Source of the DNA: Salarchaeum sp. JOR-1
GTDB taxonomy: Archaea; Halobacteriota; Halobacteria; Halobacteriales; Halobacteriaceae
Assembly: GCF_007833275.1 (NCBI RefSeq)
Contig: NZ_CP042240.1
Coordinates: 62,001 to 126,000 of the forward strand
DNA length: 64,000 nt
Direction: 5' to 3'
Made by a program: the position numbers and the translations under genes. The notes beneath the pieces are model-generated. The model did not search any database, was not told the origin of the DNA, and was given only the letters and a program-made list of their open reading frames with translations. Position 1 is the stretch's first letter. The number at the start of each line of letters is the position of its first letter. Shown piece after piece: positions 44,755 through 61,665 of the stretch.

Positions 44755-47671
44755 GTTTCAGACGTACCCTCGTGGGGTTGAAGCGGTAGCACGGCGACGG
44801 TCTCGCCCGTCGGCACCCCGTTTCAGACGTACCCTCGTGGGGTTGAAGCCGGTTGTGGTGTGTCACGCATCGGGCCGTCGCTGGCGTTTCAGACGTACCC
44901 TCGTGGGGTTGAAGCGGGCCGATGACCGGCCTCGCACGCACCCGCGCCCGGTTTCAGACGTACCCTCGTGGGGTTGAAGCCGTCGTTGTCTCCGTGCCGA
45001 TGTCGGTACCGAGGCCGTTTCAGACGTACCCTCGTGGGGTTGAAGCATATTGATATGGCGCGTGGGCGTGGGTCGTGGACGGTTTCAGACGTACCCTCGT
45101 GGGGTTGAAGCCTCGTCATCCCACAGAACCTGAGTCTCCTCCGCGACGTTTCAGACGTACCCTCGTGGGGTTGAAGCCACCGTCCGAATCCCCGGATCAA
45201 TCGTACTCCCCCGTTTCAGACGTACCCTCGTGGGGTTGAAGCCACCGTCCGAATCCCCGGATCAATCGTACTCCCCCGTTTCAGACGTACCCTCGTGGGG
45301 TTGAAGCGAGCTAAACGAACTTGAAGAGTCAGAGGTGAAGAACAGTTTCAGACGTACCCTCGTGGGGTTGAAGCGTTGACTGCGGTGGCTACGTCGACAC
45401 TCGGAGGGACGGCGTTTCAGACGTACCCTCGTGGGGTTGAAGCCGTGATTTTAACGTCGGAGCGCGTGAATCCCTCGCCGTTTCAGACGTACCCTCGTGG
45501 GGTTGAAGCGGCTTAGCTTCACCCCCACCGTCGTCGGGCTGTGGTTGTTTCAGACGTACCCTCGTGGGGTTGAAGCAGCCGCGTCGGCAGATCCCCTTCA
45601 GGAGCGTCAAGCGTTTCAGACGTACCCTCGTGGGGTTGAAGCTGGTTGATTGCCAGCATCACGAAGCCCTACGTAAAGCAGTTTCAGACGTACCCTCGTG
45701 GGGTTGAAGCGCCGCTCCAGTCCGATTCGTAACGGGGGCGGTAGTTTCAGACGTACCCTCGTGGGGTTGAAGCTTCAGACGGCCGAGCACGCCGCCCGAG
45801 CGGCCGCCGAGTTTCAGACGTACCCTCGTGGGGTTGAAGCCATTAGACGCATACACCGGATAATGGGAATAGCGAGGTTTCAGACGTACCCTCGTGGGGT
45901 TGAAGCCCGCTGTAGTGGGCGTAGACGCTGTTCGGGACGCGTTTCAGACGTACCCTCGTGGGGTTGAAGCAATCTTGACCCTCGAGTATCGGAGAACGTG
46001 CAGGGCGTTTCAGACGTACCCTCGTGGGGTTGAAGCCCGAGTCGAAGAAGTCGGGCGAGGATGCGTGGTGGGTTTCAGACGTACCCTCGTGGGGTTGAAG
46101 CATCCCTGAGGTGCGGACGATTGATGAGATTAATCTTGTTTCAGACGTACCCTCGTGGGGTTGAAGCGGTCTCTCCCAACGCAGTCGGGTTGATATCTGG
46201 TGTTTCAGACGTACCCTCGTGGGGTTGAAGCGCGTGGGATGGATGGGGTGTATGGGGTGCTTGCAGCAGTTTCAGACGTACCCTCGTGGGGTTGAAGCGA
46301 TGAGTGCGAGGCCGCGTTGCGTGCTGATGTCGCCGGTTTCAGACGTACCCTCGTGGGGTTGAAGCTCGCTGGCATGGAGACGGCGGAAAGTCAGCTTGAC
46401 GTTTCAGACGTACCCTCGTGGGGTTGAAGCGACAAGATGGATGACGACGACCGGAGCATGCTCTTGTTTCAGACGTACCCTCGTGGGGTTGAAGCACCAC
46501 GTGGGCAAGAACTAAGGTAATTGGCCACATGTTTCAGACGTACCCTCGTGGGGTTGAAGCTCTCCGTCCCTGTCCGGCGCTCCGAGCAGGAGATCCGTTT
46601 CAGACGTACCCTCGTGGGGTTGAAGCCCACAGGGCACTGGCCCACACATCGACACCTCTTCGTTTCAGACGTACCCTCGTGGGGTTGAAGCTCGGAGGAA
46701 GCGGCCCGCGACCGCATCAACGAACTCGTTTCAGACGTACCCTCGTGGGGTTGAAGCGAGTCGTTCGCCGTGATTTGGGAGGGAACGCTCGTCGTTTCAG
46801 ACGTACCCTCGTGGGGTTGAAGCGGCGATCCAGCCGATGGGCTGCGCCCAGTACCACGGCGTTTCAGACGTACCCTCGTGGGGTTGAAGCCGGCGTAATC
46901 GTAGATGGTAGTTCCGGAGCCGTAATGTTTCAGACGTACCCTCGTGGGGTTGAAGCGTTTGTGCGGCAGCGCGCGACAGCTGGCGCTGCAGTTTCAGACG
47001 TACCCTCGTGGGGTTGAAGCACCCCCGAGGCGGACCGCGTGGGCCGCATCACCCTCGTTTCAGACGTACCCTCGTGGGGTTGAAGCACCGGGCCGTCATC
47101 CTCGCCGTTCGTGAACGACGGGTTTCAGACGTACCCTCGTGGGGTTGAAGCGCATCCACACCTTCAGGAGTATCACAACGACGACTAGTTTCAGACGTAC
47201 CCTCGTGGGGTTGAAGCCCGTTCTCCGGCCCGCTCCTGAATAAGCGACTGCCGGTTTCAGACGTACCCTCGTGGGGTTGAAGCACCACCACCGCCAGTCC
47301 CAAACGTCGTATGCTGGCTCGTTTCAGACGTACCCTCGTGGGGTTGAAGCACGACGACCACGTCGTACTCGTCGATGTCCGCGGTTTCAGACGTACCCTC
47401 GTGGGGTTGAAGCGGCCTCTAACATCCATGAGCAAGACACTTGGAGGTTTCAGACGTACCCTCGTGGGGTTGAAGCCGACGTTGCGGGCGTGGATTGCGT
47501 ATGCGCGTGAGGTTTCAGACGTACCCTCGTGGGGTTGAAGCCGACGTTGCGGGCGTGGATTGCGTATGCGCGTGAGGTTTCAGACGTACCCTCGTGGGGT
47601 TGAAGCCGACGTTGCGGGCGTGGATTGCGTATGCGCGTGAGGTTTCAGACGTACCCTCGTGGGGTTGAAGC
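44755..47671 (+). CRISPR. Type I-B CRISPR array, 45 repeats and 44 spacers
   Basis: The repeat is 30 bp, starting GTTTCAGACGTACCCTCGTG and ending GGGTTGAAGC. By reading I count 45 copies, the first at 44755-44784 and the last at 47642-47671, all apparently identical, including the last one. Spacers are 33-39 bp, mostly 35-36. Spacers 7 (45178-45212) and 8 (45243-45277) are identical, and spacers 42, 43 and 44 (47477-47511, 47542-47576, 47607-47641) are identical, leaving 41 different spacers. The repeat has the GTTTCAGACG...TTGAAGC form of haloarchaeal type I-B systems. The leader lies at the cas2 side, so the array reads in the direction of the cas genes. Spacer targets could not be searched here. 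Confidence 0.98.
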
Positions 47672-58388: not shown

Positions 58389-58454
58389 ATGTACACGCGG
58401 ACAGTCGGCGTACTGGCCGTCATTGCAGTCGTCGTGCTCGCTGCGTGCGGCGGC
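58389..58454 (+). pseudogene. Orphan lipoprotein signal peptide (gene 5' end only)
   Basis: ATG at 58389 opens MYTRTVGVLAVIAVVVLAAC, an ideal archaeal lipoprotein signal peptide with a lipobox. The frame then turns into arginine-rich non-protein-like sequence before the integrase start at 58650. It looks like the 5' end of a gene cut by arrival of the integrase module. Confidence 0.3.
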
Positions 58455-58649
58455 CGGCGCGAGCACGAGCCGCCTCCGTCATCGCGACGGGTTTCGCCGC
58501 GGTCTGCCGAACTCCGAACCCGAAGACTGAGTCGCCGGGAGGGGAACGATAATGCGTACCGAGTCCGTATCTGCGAGTATGAACGGAGTCGTGAACGAGA
58601 CCGTGGTCGGCGCTGCGCTGCGAGGCGACCGGATCCGGGAGCGCTGAGT

Positions 58650-59900
58650 ATGCCCCGGTACGCTCGCTTCGACGGGCTCGACGACTTCGCCGCGTTCTAT
58701 CGCGAGACCGTCGTTCCCGCGCTCCGCGACGACCCCGCCTGCGACGTGAACCCCGACCGGGAGACGCCGCCCTACGCGTGGCTGAAAGCGAACTACTCGG
58801 GGTTCGTCGAGCGACTGCGGCGCGACCACGGGCTTTCGCCGGGCGCGTTCTACGACGAGGTCGGCCTCCCGCCAAACCCCGGCGAGGACGACGAGTGGGG
58901 ACTCGACCACGACCCCACGGTGCGCGGGCTGGAGGACTACCTGGAAGAACTCGAACGCGACCGGGGGCGTGCGGCGACAACGGTCGGGCCGCGGCGCTCG
59001 CGCCTCCGGACGTACGCCACCACGTACCGGGACGTGAACGACACGAGCGACCTGCTCTCGCCGCTGCTGGACGAGACGGCGAAGCCCGAGGAGATCGCGC
59101 GCGTCCGAGATACGTTCCGCGTGCTCGACGAGGAGTTGGGGACGCTTGCCTCGAAGAAGAAGTACGTCTCTGCGGTGAAAAACTGGTATACGTTCCTCGA
59201 GGAGATGGGGCGCGGACTGTACAATCCGGCGGCGAGCATTCTGAACCGGTTCGGGTGGGACGAGGATCCGCTCTACGACCATCCGGCGCTGTCCCGGGAG
59301 GACGTGCAGGCCTTGCTCGCGGTCGCGAACCCCGACGAACGCTTCCTCCTGTTGGCGCTTGCGGGCTGGGGGTTGCGGCCGGTGGAGGCCTGCGAGCTCC
59401 ACGTCGACCAGCTCGTGTTGAGCCCCCCGGAGGGGGACGTGCCGTACGTCGAGTTCGCGGCCGGTGAGCGGAAGAACGCGCGACGCACCCGGAATACGGT
59501 GGAGTTGTTAGTCGGCGTGGACGCGGTTCGGGAGCGAGTGGCCAGGTTCGCGGACGCCGAGGAGTGGAGCGGGTATCTGCTGCCGGGGGAGTCGGACGGG
59601 ATATCGACGGAGACGGCGCGTCGGTGGTTCCGGTCGCTCGGGGAGCGCGCGGACGTGTCGGTGGCGGGCGAGCCGCCACTGCCGAAGATGGGGCGGCGGA
59701 CGTGGTATCGGCTGTACCGCCGGCAGCGCCCGGACATCGAGGCCGGGACGGCAGCCGTCGCCGCCTCCCAAGGGAGTCGTGATCCGTCGGTCTCGGAGCG
59801 GAACTACCTCGACGAGCGCTCGCGGCGACAGGCGCGTGCGGACGCAATGCGCGACCTCGTTCGCGCGGAGTTCGCGGACATCTTCGAGCGCTACCTCTGA
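58650..59900 (+). CDS. Tyrosine recombinase/integrase
   Basis: This 416-aa integrase has an N-terminal SAM-like binding domain (about 90-200) and a catalytic domain. Arg243 is in LALAGWGLRPVEACELHVDQL (motif RxxE-like), Arg354 in MGRRTWYRLYRRQ, and the nucleophile Tyr386 is in SVSERNYLDERS. The usual HxxR histidine before Arg354 is not obvious. Such integrases insert plasmids and proviruses into tRNA genes or other att sites, or resolve multimers. I chose ATG at 58650 (MPRYARFDGL). The frame is open further upstream but reads as non-protein-like. It is followed by the iteron-ParA module, suggesting one mobile or plasmid-derived unit. Confidence 0.85.
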   Translation: MPRYARFDGLDDFAAFYRETVVPALRDDPACDVNPDRETPPYAWLKANYSGFVERLRRDHGLSPGAFYDEVGLPPNPGEDDEWGLDHDPTVRGLEDYLEELERDRGRAATTVGPRRSRLRTYATTYRDVNDTSDLLSPLLDETAKPEEIARVRDTFRVLDEELGTLASKKKYVSAVKNWYTFLEEMGRGLYNPAASILNRFGWDEDPLYDHPALSREDVQALLAVANPDERFLLLALAGWGLRPVEACELHVDQLVLSPPEGDVPYVEFAAGERKNARRTRNTVELLVGVDAVRERVARFADAEEWSGYLLPGESDGISTETARRWFRSLGERADVSVAGEPPLPKMGRRTWYRLYRRQRPDIEAGTAAVAASQGSRDPSVSERNYLDERSRRQARADAMRDLVRAEFADIFERYL

Positions 59901-60028
59901 GGAAATAGAACCGGGGCGAGAAGACTCACTCGGACGCTCGACGACACGTACCGACGGTCACGGACAGCCAAACCGCCGGCTCGGATCGCCGTTGGCCATC
60001 GGCGGTCGGAACCCGAAGACCGATAGAG

Positions 60029-60193
60029 TATAGCTATATCTTATAGGTGAATCGTATAGTCAGTAAGTATAGTCGGAGTGTATAGAAATTCCGTATAGTG
60101 AGGAGGGAGCGGTCTGTAAGGGGTATAGCGGGGGAAGCGAGCGGTACCCTACGCCCATAAAGTATAGTTATAGAGTATAGCTATATGGTATAG
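60029..60193. repeat. TATAG iterons phased at 13 bp, upstream of parA (candidate centromere)
   Basis: TATAG occurs at 60029, 60042, 60055, 60068, 60081 and 60094, exactly 13 bp apart, then at 60124, 60163, 60176 and 60189 (the last three again 13 bp apart). An extra copy lies at 60169. TATAGCTATA palindromes lie at 60029 and 60176. The array ends about 62 bp before the ParA start. Phased short iterons next to a ParA gene are what a partition site bound by the partner protein should look like. Confidence 0.8.
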
Positions 60194-60255
60194 CTGTATA
60201 TTGTGGCTGTTGGTTGTGACCTATCTTTATCAGTGATGCGTGTGTCCCCCCGTGT

Positions 60256-61116
60256 ATGCTGACGTACACCCCAGTGTCGGAGGCGGGCGGCGTGGGAAAG
60301 ACCACGACCGCCGCGACACTCGCAGTCAGTCACGCGCGGAACGGCCAGGACGTTCTCGCGATAGACATGGACACGCAGAACGGAAGTCTGACGTACTTCT
60401 TCGGGCCGGACTACGACCGGGGCGACCCGGACGCGGACAACCTCGTCCGCCACCTCGTCGGCCGCCCGAAGGGCGACTTCGCCGACCTCACGCAGACCGT
60501 CGAGGCGGGCGTCGACCTCGTGCCGTCGCACAACATGCTCGAGGACGTCCACGAGTTCCTGCTCAACGAGAAACAGCAGGCCGAGCGGCTCGGCGAGTCG
60601 TTCAGCATGTACCATCAGCTTCACCGCGTGCTCAAGGACGCGAACGTGCGCGACGAGTACGACGTGGTCATCGTCGACACCGCGGGGAAGGCTGGGCCGA
60701 TCCTGTACAACGCGCTGGTCGCAGTTCGGAACGTCGTGATCCCGTTCGAAGCGACCGCGAAAGGCCAGGAGTCCATCGAGGGCCTGGACGACCTGGTGGA
60801 CGGCCTGGAGGAGAATATCGGCGTCGACGTGGGCGTGCTCGCCGTCCTTCCACTTGGGTTCAAGAACACGCGCGACCAGCGGGAGATTCTGGAAGATCTC
60901 CGGGTGCAGGGGTTCCCGGTACCGGTCGTCATCGGAGAGCGGAGTTCGCTGATGGAGGGGTGCTGGAAACAGCAATGTAGTCCATTCCGCTATATCGAAG
61001 AACACCGGGAGCGAGAGCGGGAGTACGAGCTCGAAACCATAGAACAGTTCGAGGAGCTCGCTCGCTACCTCGAACGGGAGGCTGGACTCGACACGCCCGA
61101 GGGGGTGACCGCGTAA
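60256..61116 (+). CDS. ParA-family partition ATPase
   Basis: This 286-aa ATPase has the deviant Walker A EAGGVGKTTT (Lys15), in which the usual signature lysine before GG is replaced by alanine (residue 10). It also has switch I LAIDMDTQNGSLTYFF and Walker B DVVIVDTAGKAGPIL. ParA proteins position plasmids or cargo on the nucleoid, driven by a centromere-binding partner. It overlaps the next gene by one base and is preceded by the phased TATAG iterons. There is no N-terminal DNA-binding extension. The C-terminal third (REREREYELETIEQFEELARYLEREA) is a charged helix likely to contact the partner. Confidence 0.9.
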   Translation: MLTYTPVSEAGGVGKTTTAATLAVSHARNGQDVLAIDMDTQNGSLTYFFGPDYDRGDPDADNLVRHLVGRPKGDFADLTQTVEAGVDLVPSHNMLEDVHEFLLNEKQQAERLGESFSMYHQLHRVLKDANVRDEYDVVIVDTAGKAGPILYNALVAVRNVVIPFEATAKGQESIEGLDDLVDGLEENIGVDVGVLAVLPLGFKNTRDQREILEDLRVQGFPVPVVIGERSSLMEGCWKQQCSPFRYIEEHREREREYELETIEQFEELARYLEREAGLDTPEGVTA

Positions 61117-61535
61117 TGGGACTCAAATCGGGGTCGCGGGACGCCGGCCTCGACGACGAGGAGGTCGACGAAGACGTGGCGGACGGACAGAGCGAGTCCG
61201 AAGCGGTCGAGCAGCCGGAGACAGAGAATGAATCGGCGGCGTCGAGAACGGCGGACACGGTGGGGTCGGAGAGCGAGGCGGACGACCGGCCGTCGATGAG
61301 TTCGATTCCGTATAAACTCCGCCGGGACAAGGTGAACGAGGGACGCGAGCAGGTTCCGTACTTCCTCCGAGAGGAAGTCGTCGCGGGCGAGGACGACTTG
61401 CAGGCGGAACTGGAGGACGTACTCGACGAGAAGGTGTACAAGTCGGACTATCGGGAGGCGGCGATGGTAGTCGCGCAGCGCAATCCCGACCTCATCGCGG
61501 ACGTGCTCCGCGAGTGGGGATACGACCTGGAGTAG
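61116..61535 (+). CDS. ParA operon partner of unknown family (candidate centromere-binding protein)
   Basis: This 139-aa acidic protein is coupled to parA by a TAATG overlap. The first 65 residues are disordered and extremely acidic (DDEEVDEDVADGQSESEAVE). The C-terminal domain (about 66-139: MSSIPYKLRRDKVNEGREQV then PYFLREEVVAGEDDLQAELEDVL) is helical with a basic patch. I do not recognise a ParB domain. By position it should be the adaptor that links ParA to DNA, with the phased TATAG/CTATA repeats on both sides as its sites. The role is inferred. Confidence 0.6.
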   Translation: MGLKSGSRDAGLDDEEVDEDVADGQSESEAVEQPETENESAASRTADTVGSESEADDRPSMSSIPYKLRRDKVNEGREQVPYFLREEVVAGEDDLQAELEDVLDEKVYKSDYREAAMVVAQRNPDLIADVLREWGYDLE

Positions 61536-61621
61536 CCTCGGCACTCGACCACCACACCACTGTGTCCGCTGTTCTTCGCGTGTTCGAGTCCGCAACCGAA
61601 CCGTATCCACACCCTCATAAC

Positions 61622-61665
61622 TACACTCTGTAACTATGTTTTATAGCTATATCTTATAACTATAC
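61622..61665. repeat. Inverted CTATA iterons phased at 13 bp, downstream of the parA operon
   Basis: CTACA (61622), CTATG (61635), CTATA (61648) and CTATA (61661) lie exactly 13 bp apart, each after AA or AG, i.e. the upstream iteron in opposite orientation. The 17-bp string TATAGCTATATCTTATA (61643-61659) is identical to 60029-60045. The repeats start about 87 bp after the partner gene's stop. The unit thus has inverted iteron arrays on both sides. Confidence 0.7.

Follow-up and report, generated by a model that had tools for sequence, protein, structure and literature searches.

The parA operon in the window (the whole 64-kb stretch of DNA that was analysed, positions 62001-126000 of a contig of 178,915 bp, or 178.9 kb) appears to work like a type Ib partition system. 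Its repeats, spaced at 13 bp, probably form a centromere that is also the operator of the operon. This reading is supported by the phasing of the repeats, by repeat cores that are specific to lineages, by covariation of these cores with one domain of the partner protein, by the occurrence of arrays 5' as well as 3' of the operon, and by the lack of shared cores among modules that reside in the same genome. Together with its relatives, the 13-bp phased module points to a widespread archaeal counterpart of the plasmid centromere with interchangeable specificities. The module is apparently undescribed: the open-access literature searched held no account of 13-bp phased repeats of this kind or of this partner family. 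The operon and its flanks contain the following features.

58389-59900, + strand: tyrosine recombinase ORF, just 5' of the distal array (Pfam Phage_integrase and XerD-like matches, below curated cut-offs)
60028-60099, + strand: distal upstream array, six TATAG units at exact 13-bp steps (60029, 60042, 60055, 60068, 60081, 60094)
60124-60128, + strand: lone additional TATAG, off phase
60161-60204, + strand: proximal upstream array, three TATAG units (60163, 60176, 60189)
60213-60231, + strand: promoter predicted by inspection, GTTGTGAC at 60213-60220 (-43 position) and the TATA-like TTTATC at 60226-60231
60256-61116, + strand: ParA-like P-loop ATPase, 286 aa, no N-terminal HTH (Pfam AAA_31 and CbiA matches; alignment to Soj)
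61116-61535, + strand: partner, 139 aa, predicted centromere-binding protein
61621-61664, - strand: downstream array, four units at 13-bp steps (CTACA 61621, CTATG 61634, CTATA 61647, CTATA 61660)

A preliminary description of this DNA had reported the nine phased upstream TATAG positions with their 13-bp steps, and the coordinates of parA and its partner, and all of these are correct. The two upstream runs are 69 bp apart and mutually out of phase, and TATAG also occurs unphased at 60169, besides 60124. Seven pairs of TATAG are separated by exactly 13 bp in the 240 bp upstream, and the maximum among 20,000 dinucleotide shuffles was two. In the whole 2.52-Mb genome there are 10 exact matches to TATAG-N8-TATAG. 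Eight of them are at this operon, and the remaining two are one palindromic place on the other contig (2.34 Mb).

The downstream array was also recognised in the preliminary description. Its 13-bp steps are exact as claimed, the starts had all been placed one base too far to the right, and only two of the four units read exactly CTATA. When the units are scored as CTAYR, they make up the sole + strand run of three or more in the 64 kb, and the block-shuffle p at lag 13 is 0.003. The downstream array and the proximal upstream array are 73% complementary across 44 nt. A 17-bp string, TATAGCTATATCTTATA, is identical on both sides of the operon (60029-60045 and 61642-61658), as had been noticed, and it is a same-strand direct repeat rather than an inverted one. 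The inverted orientation proposed for the flanking arrays carries little meaning, because the unit of the window's clade is near-palindromic (PWM against its own reverse complement, r=0.96).

The 13-bp phase is conserved, which strongly supports a partition system. A search among related loci for loss of the phasing failed to refute it: a significant 13-bp array lies upstream of the operon in 115 of 124 distinct haloarchaeal loci that have both ParA and the partner (p<0.01, local block shuffles), and about nine loci lack one. An array at or near the operon promoter is a feature of type Ib systems. Low-GC windows from other parts of these loci never reached p<0.01 (0 of 172), and the control lags of 10, 11, 12, 14, 15 and 16 did so in at most 1 of 62. 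In all five lineages, self-matching of the 400 bp 5' of parA peaks at lags of 13, 26 and 39, a pattern that is missing from the coding DNA and from the 3' side. Of the lags from 8 to 24, 13 is the best one in 111 of 123 loci. In clade B, the distances between cores are 13, 26 and 39 in 77, 63 and 36 cases, and no other distance occurs more than six times. Clade A has an extra companion spacing of 6-7 bp. The step is constant while the cores vary by lineage (TATAG/CTATAG, TGTTCATT, TTACAAAC, TCTTAGAT, TTGAACCA, CAGTAATACTG and others). Clustering the cores of 155 loci gave 16 groups, the smallest of which are poorly defined; about 10 look real.

The module is common in the order to which the window belongs. 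At E<=1e-40, ParA matches were present in 176 of the 295 genomes sampled from the order and in 178 plasmid records, including pNRC200, all of them non-mobilizable by PLSDB typing. Among the 394 genomes of the phylum listed, matches to the partner profile are confined to this order. ParA had no match among 50,697 phage records, and we therefore rejected a virus origin of the module. A short gene overlaps or abuts the end of parA in 124 of 125 distinct loci, and nearly all of these genes are recognisably the same partner. With few exceptions among the 125 loci, the overlap is 4 or 1 bp; it is 1 bp (TAATG) in the window. A partner directly downstream in the same operon is another feature of type Ib systems.

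The ParA of the window is short, with a P-loop that starts at residue 11 and no N-terminal HTH, as in type Ib systems. It differs from them in the deviant Walker A box, defined as KGGxxK[S/T] (PMC9178275), where the signature lysine is replaced: AGGVGKT stands in place of KGGVGKT (SEAGGVGKT, compared to NQKGGVGKT in Soj). The signature lysine is absent from all 157 ParAs of the family; at its place, residue 10, 152 of them have A and 5 have S. The catalytic K15 and K169 are invariant in these 157 sequences, and our guess is that K169 could substitute for the signature lysine. Because that lysine is missing, the ATPase cycle may differ from that of other ParAs. The second ParA-like gene of the genome, on the other contig, is 31% identical and has the usual KGGVGKT. 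In six genomes (G226, G071, G280, G247, G232 and G248, loci L115 and L119 included), a ParA match of 52-54% identity has one in-frame TGA inside the alignment. These are probably shorter ParAs, with the match extending beyond the stop.

The partner has a conserved N-terminal MGLKSGS, a variable acidic linker, and a C-terminal RHH-like domain (approximately residues 65-137). K4 and G6 are invariant among 74 partners. Haloarchaeal proteins are generally acidic, and thus the "acidic" label that the partner had been given says little. The partner is annotated as a hypothetical protein on pNRC200 and in the annotated records that we examined. It is not recognised by any model of Pfam or NCBIfam, and neither collection gave a ParB domain. 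A search of all PDB sequences with partner profiles (hmmsearch) found no SegB and no other ribbon-helix-helix protein, and Foldseek searches with full-length and domain models gave no convincing PDB match. AlphaFold2 modelled the domain alone with a mean pLDDT of 83 and about 90 over residues 81-137, as an extended stretch followed by helices; the partner monomer models likewise have an extended strand and helices, with pLDDT of about 90 over the domain. A single ribbon-helix-helix chain would look like this, since its strand pairs only in the dimer. From this secondary structure and the covariation described below, we infer that the C-terminal domain has a ribbon-helix-helix fold.

The core letters follow the C-terminal domain of the partner better than they follow ParA. 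The correlation of motif distance is 0.83 with the distance between domains and 0.78 with that between ParAs, and the partial correlations, which remove shared ancestry only partly, are 0.52 for the domain given ParA and 0.24 for ParA given the domain. As nulls, label permutation gave a maximum of 0.071 and control lags gave 0.08. The N-terminal 25 residues of the partner track ParA instead (partial correlation of 0.36, compared to 0.15). In ribbon-helix-helix proteins (Arc, MetJ, ParG), the strand is turned toward the bases and the backbone is held by the second helix where it begins. Changes of motif are best explained by columns that include 108-110 and the strand positions 79 and 81, and the top covarying residues would thus sit where a ribbon-helix-helix protein touches DNA. 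There are also natural swaps. In three loci (L132, L142 and L145), a clade-B-like ParA (in L132 its distance to clade B is about 25%) goes together with a different C-terminal domain and the core TTGAACCA. In three others (L097, L099 and L108), ParA is about 44% away from clade A, the alternate strand residues are those of clade A (Q.P.F.R), and the core is TATAGCTATA.

Modules of the same kind are not found together in one genome in this sample, a possible signature of incompatibility. In the 26 genomes with at least two modules, none of 47 co-resident pairs shares a core, whereas 10.1% of the pairs formed between genomes do (permutation P=0.0065). The ParAs of all co-resident pairs examined are of distinct lineages (distance of at least 0.32), so the core differences are not independent of lineage and do not show that the core alone is responsible.

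The position of the upstream arrays suits repression. In relatives, the arrays stop just 5' of a TATA-like element and a conserved GTCTGAC. This 7-bp near-palindrome lies at -42 to -44 of parA in 80 of 125 loci (expectation of 0.006 per locus), and GTTGTGAC is its diverged counterpart in the window. The loci with GTCTGAC span lineages whose array cores differ (they include L003, L007, L011, L012 and L096-L099); it may be part of the promoter or be recognised by a shared host factor. Since the array abuts the promoter, autoregulation of the operon is plausible.

Arrays on both sides of the operon, which the preliminary description took for a two-sided centromere, are present in the window and are not the rule in the family. 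Downstream phasing is significant in 8 of 124 loci, and we rejected two-sidedness as a general feature. In several two-sided loci the downstream core is the same as the upstream core; L092, L150 and L046 carry same-core units on both flanks, and the window falls in this minority. Nor is the layout unprecedented: bacterial pB171 par2 constructs carry both parC1 and parC2 (PMC4270457).

We postulate that the partner forms dimers that bind the centromere. Its RHH-like domain would read one near-palindromic core (here CTATAG) in each 13-bp unit, and several dimers would line up along the array. The N-terminal peptide of the partner would contact the ParA-like ATPase and might activate it, and the ATPase would move or position the bound plasmid and thereby stabilise it. 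The promoter-proximal array would serve as an operator that represses the operon, and the downstream array as a second centromere segment. We also lean, with less confidence, toward a more specific architecture shared by haloarchaea: a fixed 13-bp ruler with a replaceable code, a new RHH-like family that binds as one dimer per 13 bp, about 10 specificities of core and domain that would define incompatibility groups among replicons in one cell, and, as the motor, a branch of ParAs that has lost the signature lysine. With such a ruler, successive dimers would be about a quarter turn apart and every fourth unit would be on the same face.

Several other explanations of the arrays can be considered. 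The arrays might be operators only, with the partner repressing transcription of parA and segregation, if any, occurring elsewhere. Most arrays are indeed directly 5' of the TATA-like element and GTCTGAC, and ribbon-helix-helix ParB proteins are known to repress their own operons (PMC9499535). However, arrays of many units exceed the length that an operator needs, and co-resident modules have no core in common. Moreover, in L097, L099 and L108 the main array is 3' of the partner and the promoter keeps just one or two units, which indicates that the array is more than an operator. Arrays that have left the promoter and yet keep core and phase would be consistent with a centromere that doubles as the operator, as in bacterial ribbon-helix-helix systems (PMC9499535, PMC7308502), and we consider an operator function alone unlikely. 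In contrast, accidental periodicity in AT-rich promoter DNA hardly merits consideration. The arrays are AT-rich and within promoters, but the phasing is reproduced neither by local-composition shuffles nor by low-GC control windows or other lags, and this explanation is refuted.

It is very unlikely that the arrays belong to a plasmid origin nearby, as replication iterons to which an initiator binds or that serve in copy control. Origins often contain iterons, and the contig has two orc1/cdc6 genes, which lie approximately 8 kb and 33 kb past the operon. However, even the nearer of the two is far from the arrays, the cores track a domain of the small ParA partner, which is too small for an initiator and has no initiator domain, and the array travels with the par operon on many different contigs. 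We give slightly less credence still to an McdA-like system in which ParA positions or regulates some other cargo and the partner, as an adaptor, binds its own promoter only incidentally. The PDB matches include McdA, and beta-McdA type 1 is likewise a ParA-family ATPase without the signature lysine (PMC8262871). However, the modules recur on plasmid records, some arrays are outside the promoter, and co-resident modules differ, all of which fit DNA as the cargo. A partition site remains the explanation that we favor.

The contig that carries the operon is most likely a plasmid, because it has two orc1/cdc6 genes. No overlap that would mark it as circular was found at its ends. The recombinase ORF next to the distal array could possibly function in dimer resolution, a suggestion that comes from association only. 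Tyrosine recombinases of one family are beside the par operon in the window and in L037, L044, L168 and L169, and in the three loci with the main array downstream (L097, L099 and L108) the end of a similar ORF seemingly lies directly 5' of parA, as judged by eye. Adjacency of a recombinase is not a constant feature (2 of 39 loci with flanks) and was rejected as such. Elsewhere in the window there are CRISPR-like arrays with the repeat GTTTCAGACGTACCCTCGTGGGGTTGAAGC (44755-45307, 46138-46757 and 47444-47671), in which whole repeat-spacer units are exactly duplicated at 45147-45307 and 47444-47671.

Haloarchaea are polyploid and have many large replicons, and little is known about how their plasmids segregate. 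The module, which is present on pNRC200 and many other haloarchaeal plasmids, is now concrete, with a named candidate centromere, a predicted binding protein, a specificity code and a prediction of incompatibility. A constant step with changing letters also provides a natural series for the diversification of protein-DNA specificity.

Partition systems and their relatives use several arrangements of ATPase, partner and DNA site. Type Ia ParABS systems have a large HTH-containing ParB CTPase; the partner here has 139 aa, with no ParB domain in Pfam or NCBIfam. In SegAB of Sulfolobales, which is also archaeal, a ParA-like protein is paired with a ribbon-helix-helix protein around which DNA is wrapped (PMC9178275). 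In contrast to the module described here, SegAB is chromosomal, and the partner profile finds neither SegB nor any other relative in the PDB. The AspA-ParB-ParA system of the Sulfolobus plasmid pNOB8 is an archaeal plasmid partition system with a ParA ATPase (PMC5120986). It has three genes and a large ParB, whereas the operon in the window has two genes and no ParB-like protein, and its neighbours are the recombinase ORF and a small unrelated ORF rather than an AspA/ParB three-gene cassette. Beta-McdA type 1 resembles our ParA family in missing the signature lysine but positions carboxysomes and not DNA. In par2 of pB171, parC1 and parC2 flank the operon (parC1-parA-parB-parC2), and the repeat unit differs from the 13-bp unit. 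The window resembles par2 in having candidate centromere segments on both sides, whereas a downstream array is the exception among relatives of the window.

The closest resemblance is to type Ib systems with a ribbon-helix-helix ParB, such as delta-omega of pSM19035 and ParF-ParG-parH of TP228. These also have a ParA without an HTH, a small partner in the same operon, and short repeats arrayed at the promoter. In both, the partner coats the array, touches ParA through its N-terminus, and represses the operon (PMC9499535, PMC7308502). The repeats are 7-bp heptads in pSM19035 and tetramer boxes in parH, compared to a step of 13 bp here. Other differences are a partner without detectable sequence similarity, a ParA without the signature lysine, and a host among the Halobacteria. 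Strictly filed, the module is a type Ib variant, because it lacks that lysine and the fold of its partner is a prediction. Activation of ParA in pSM19035 needs at least four contiguous repeats (PMC9499535), and in the window the distal upstream run has six and the downstream run has four.
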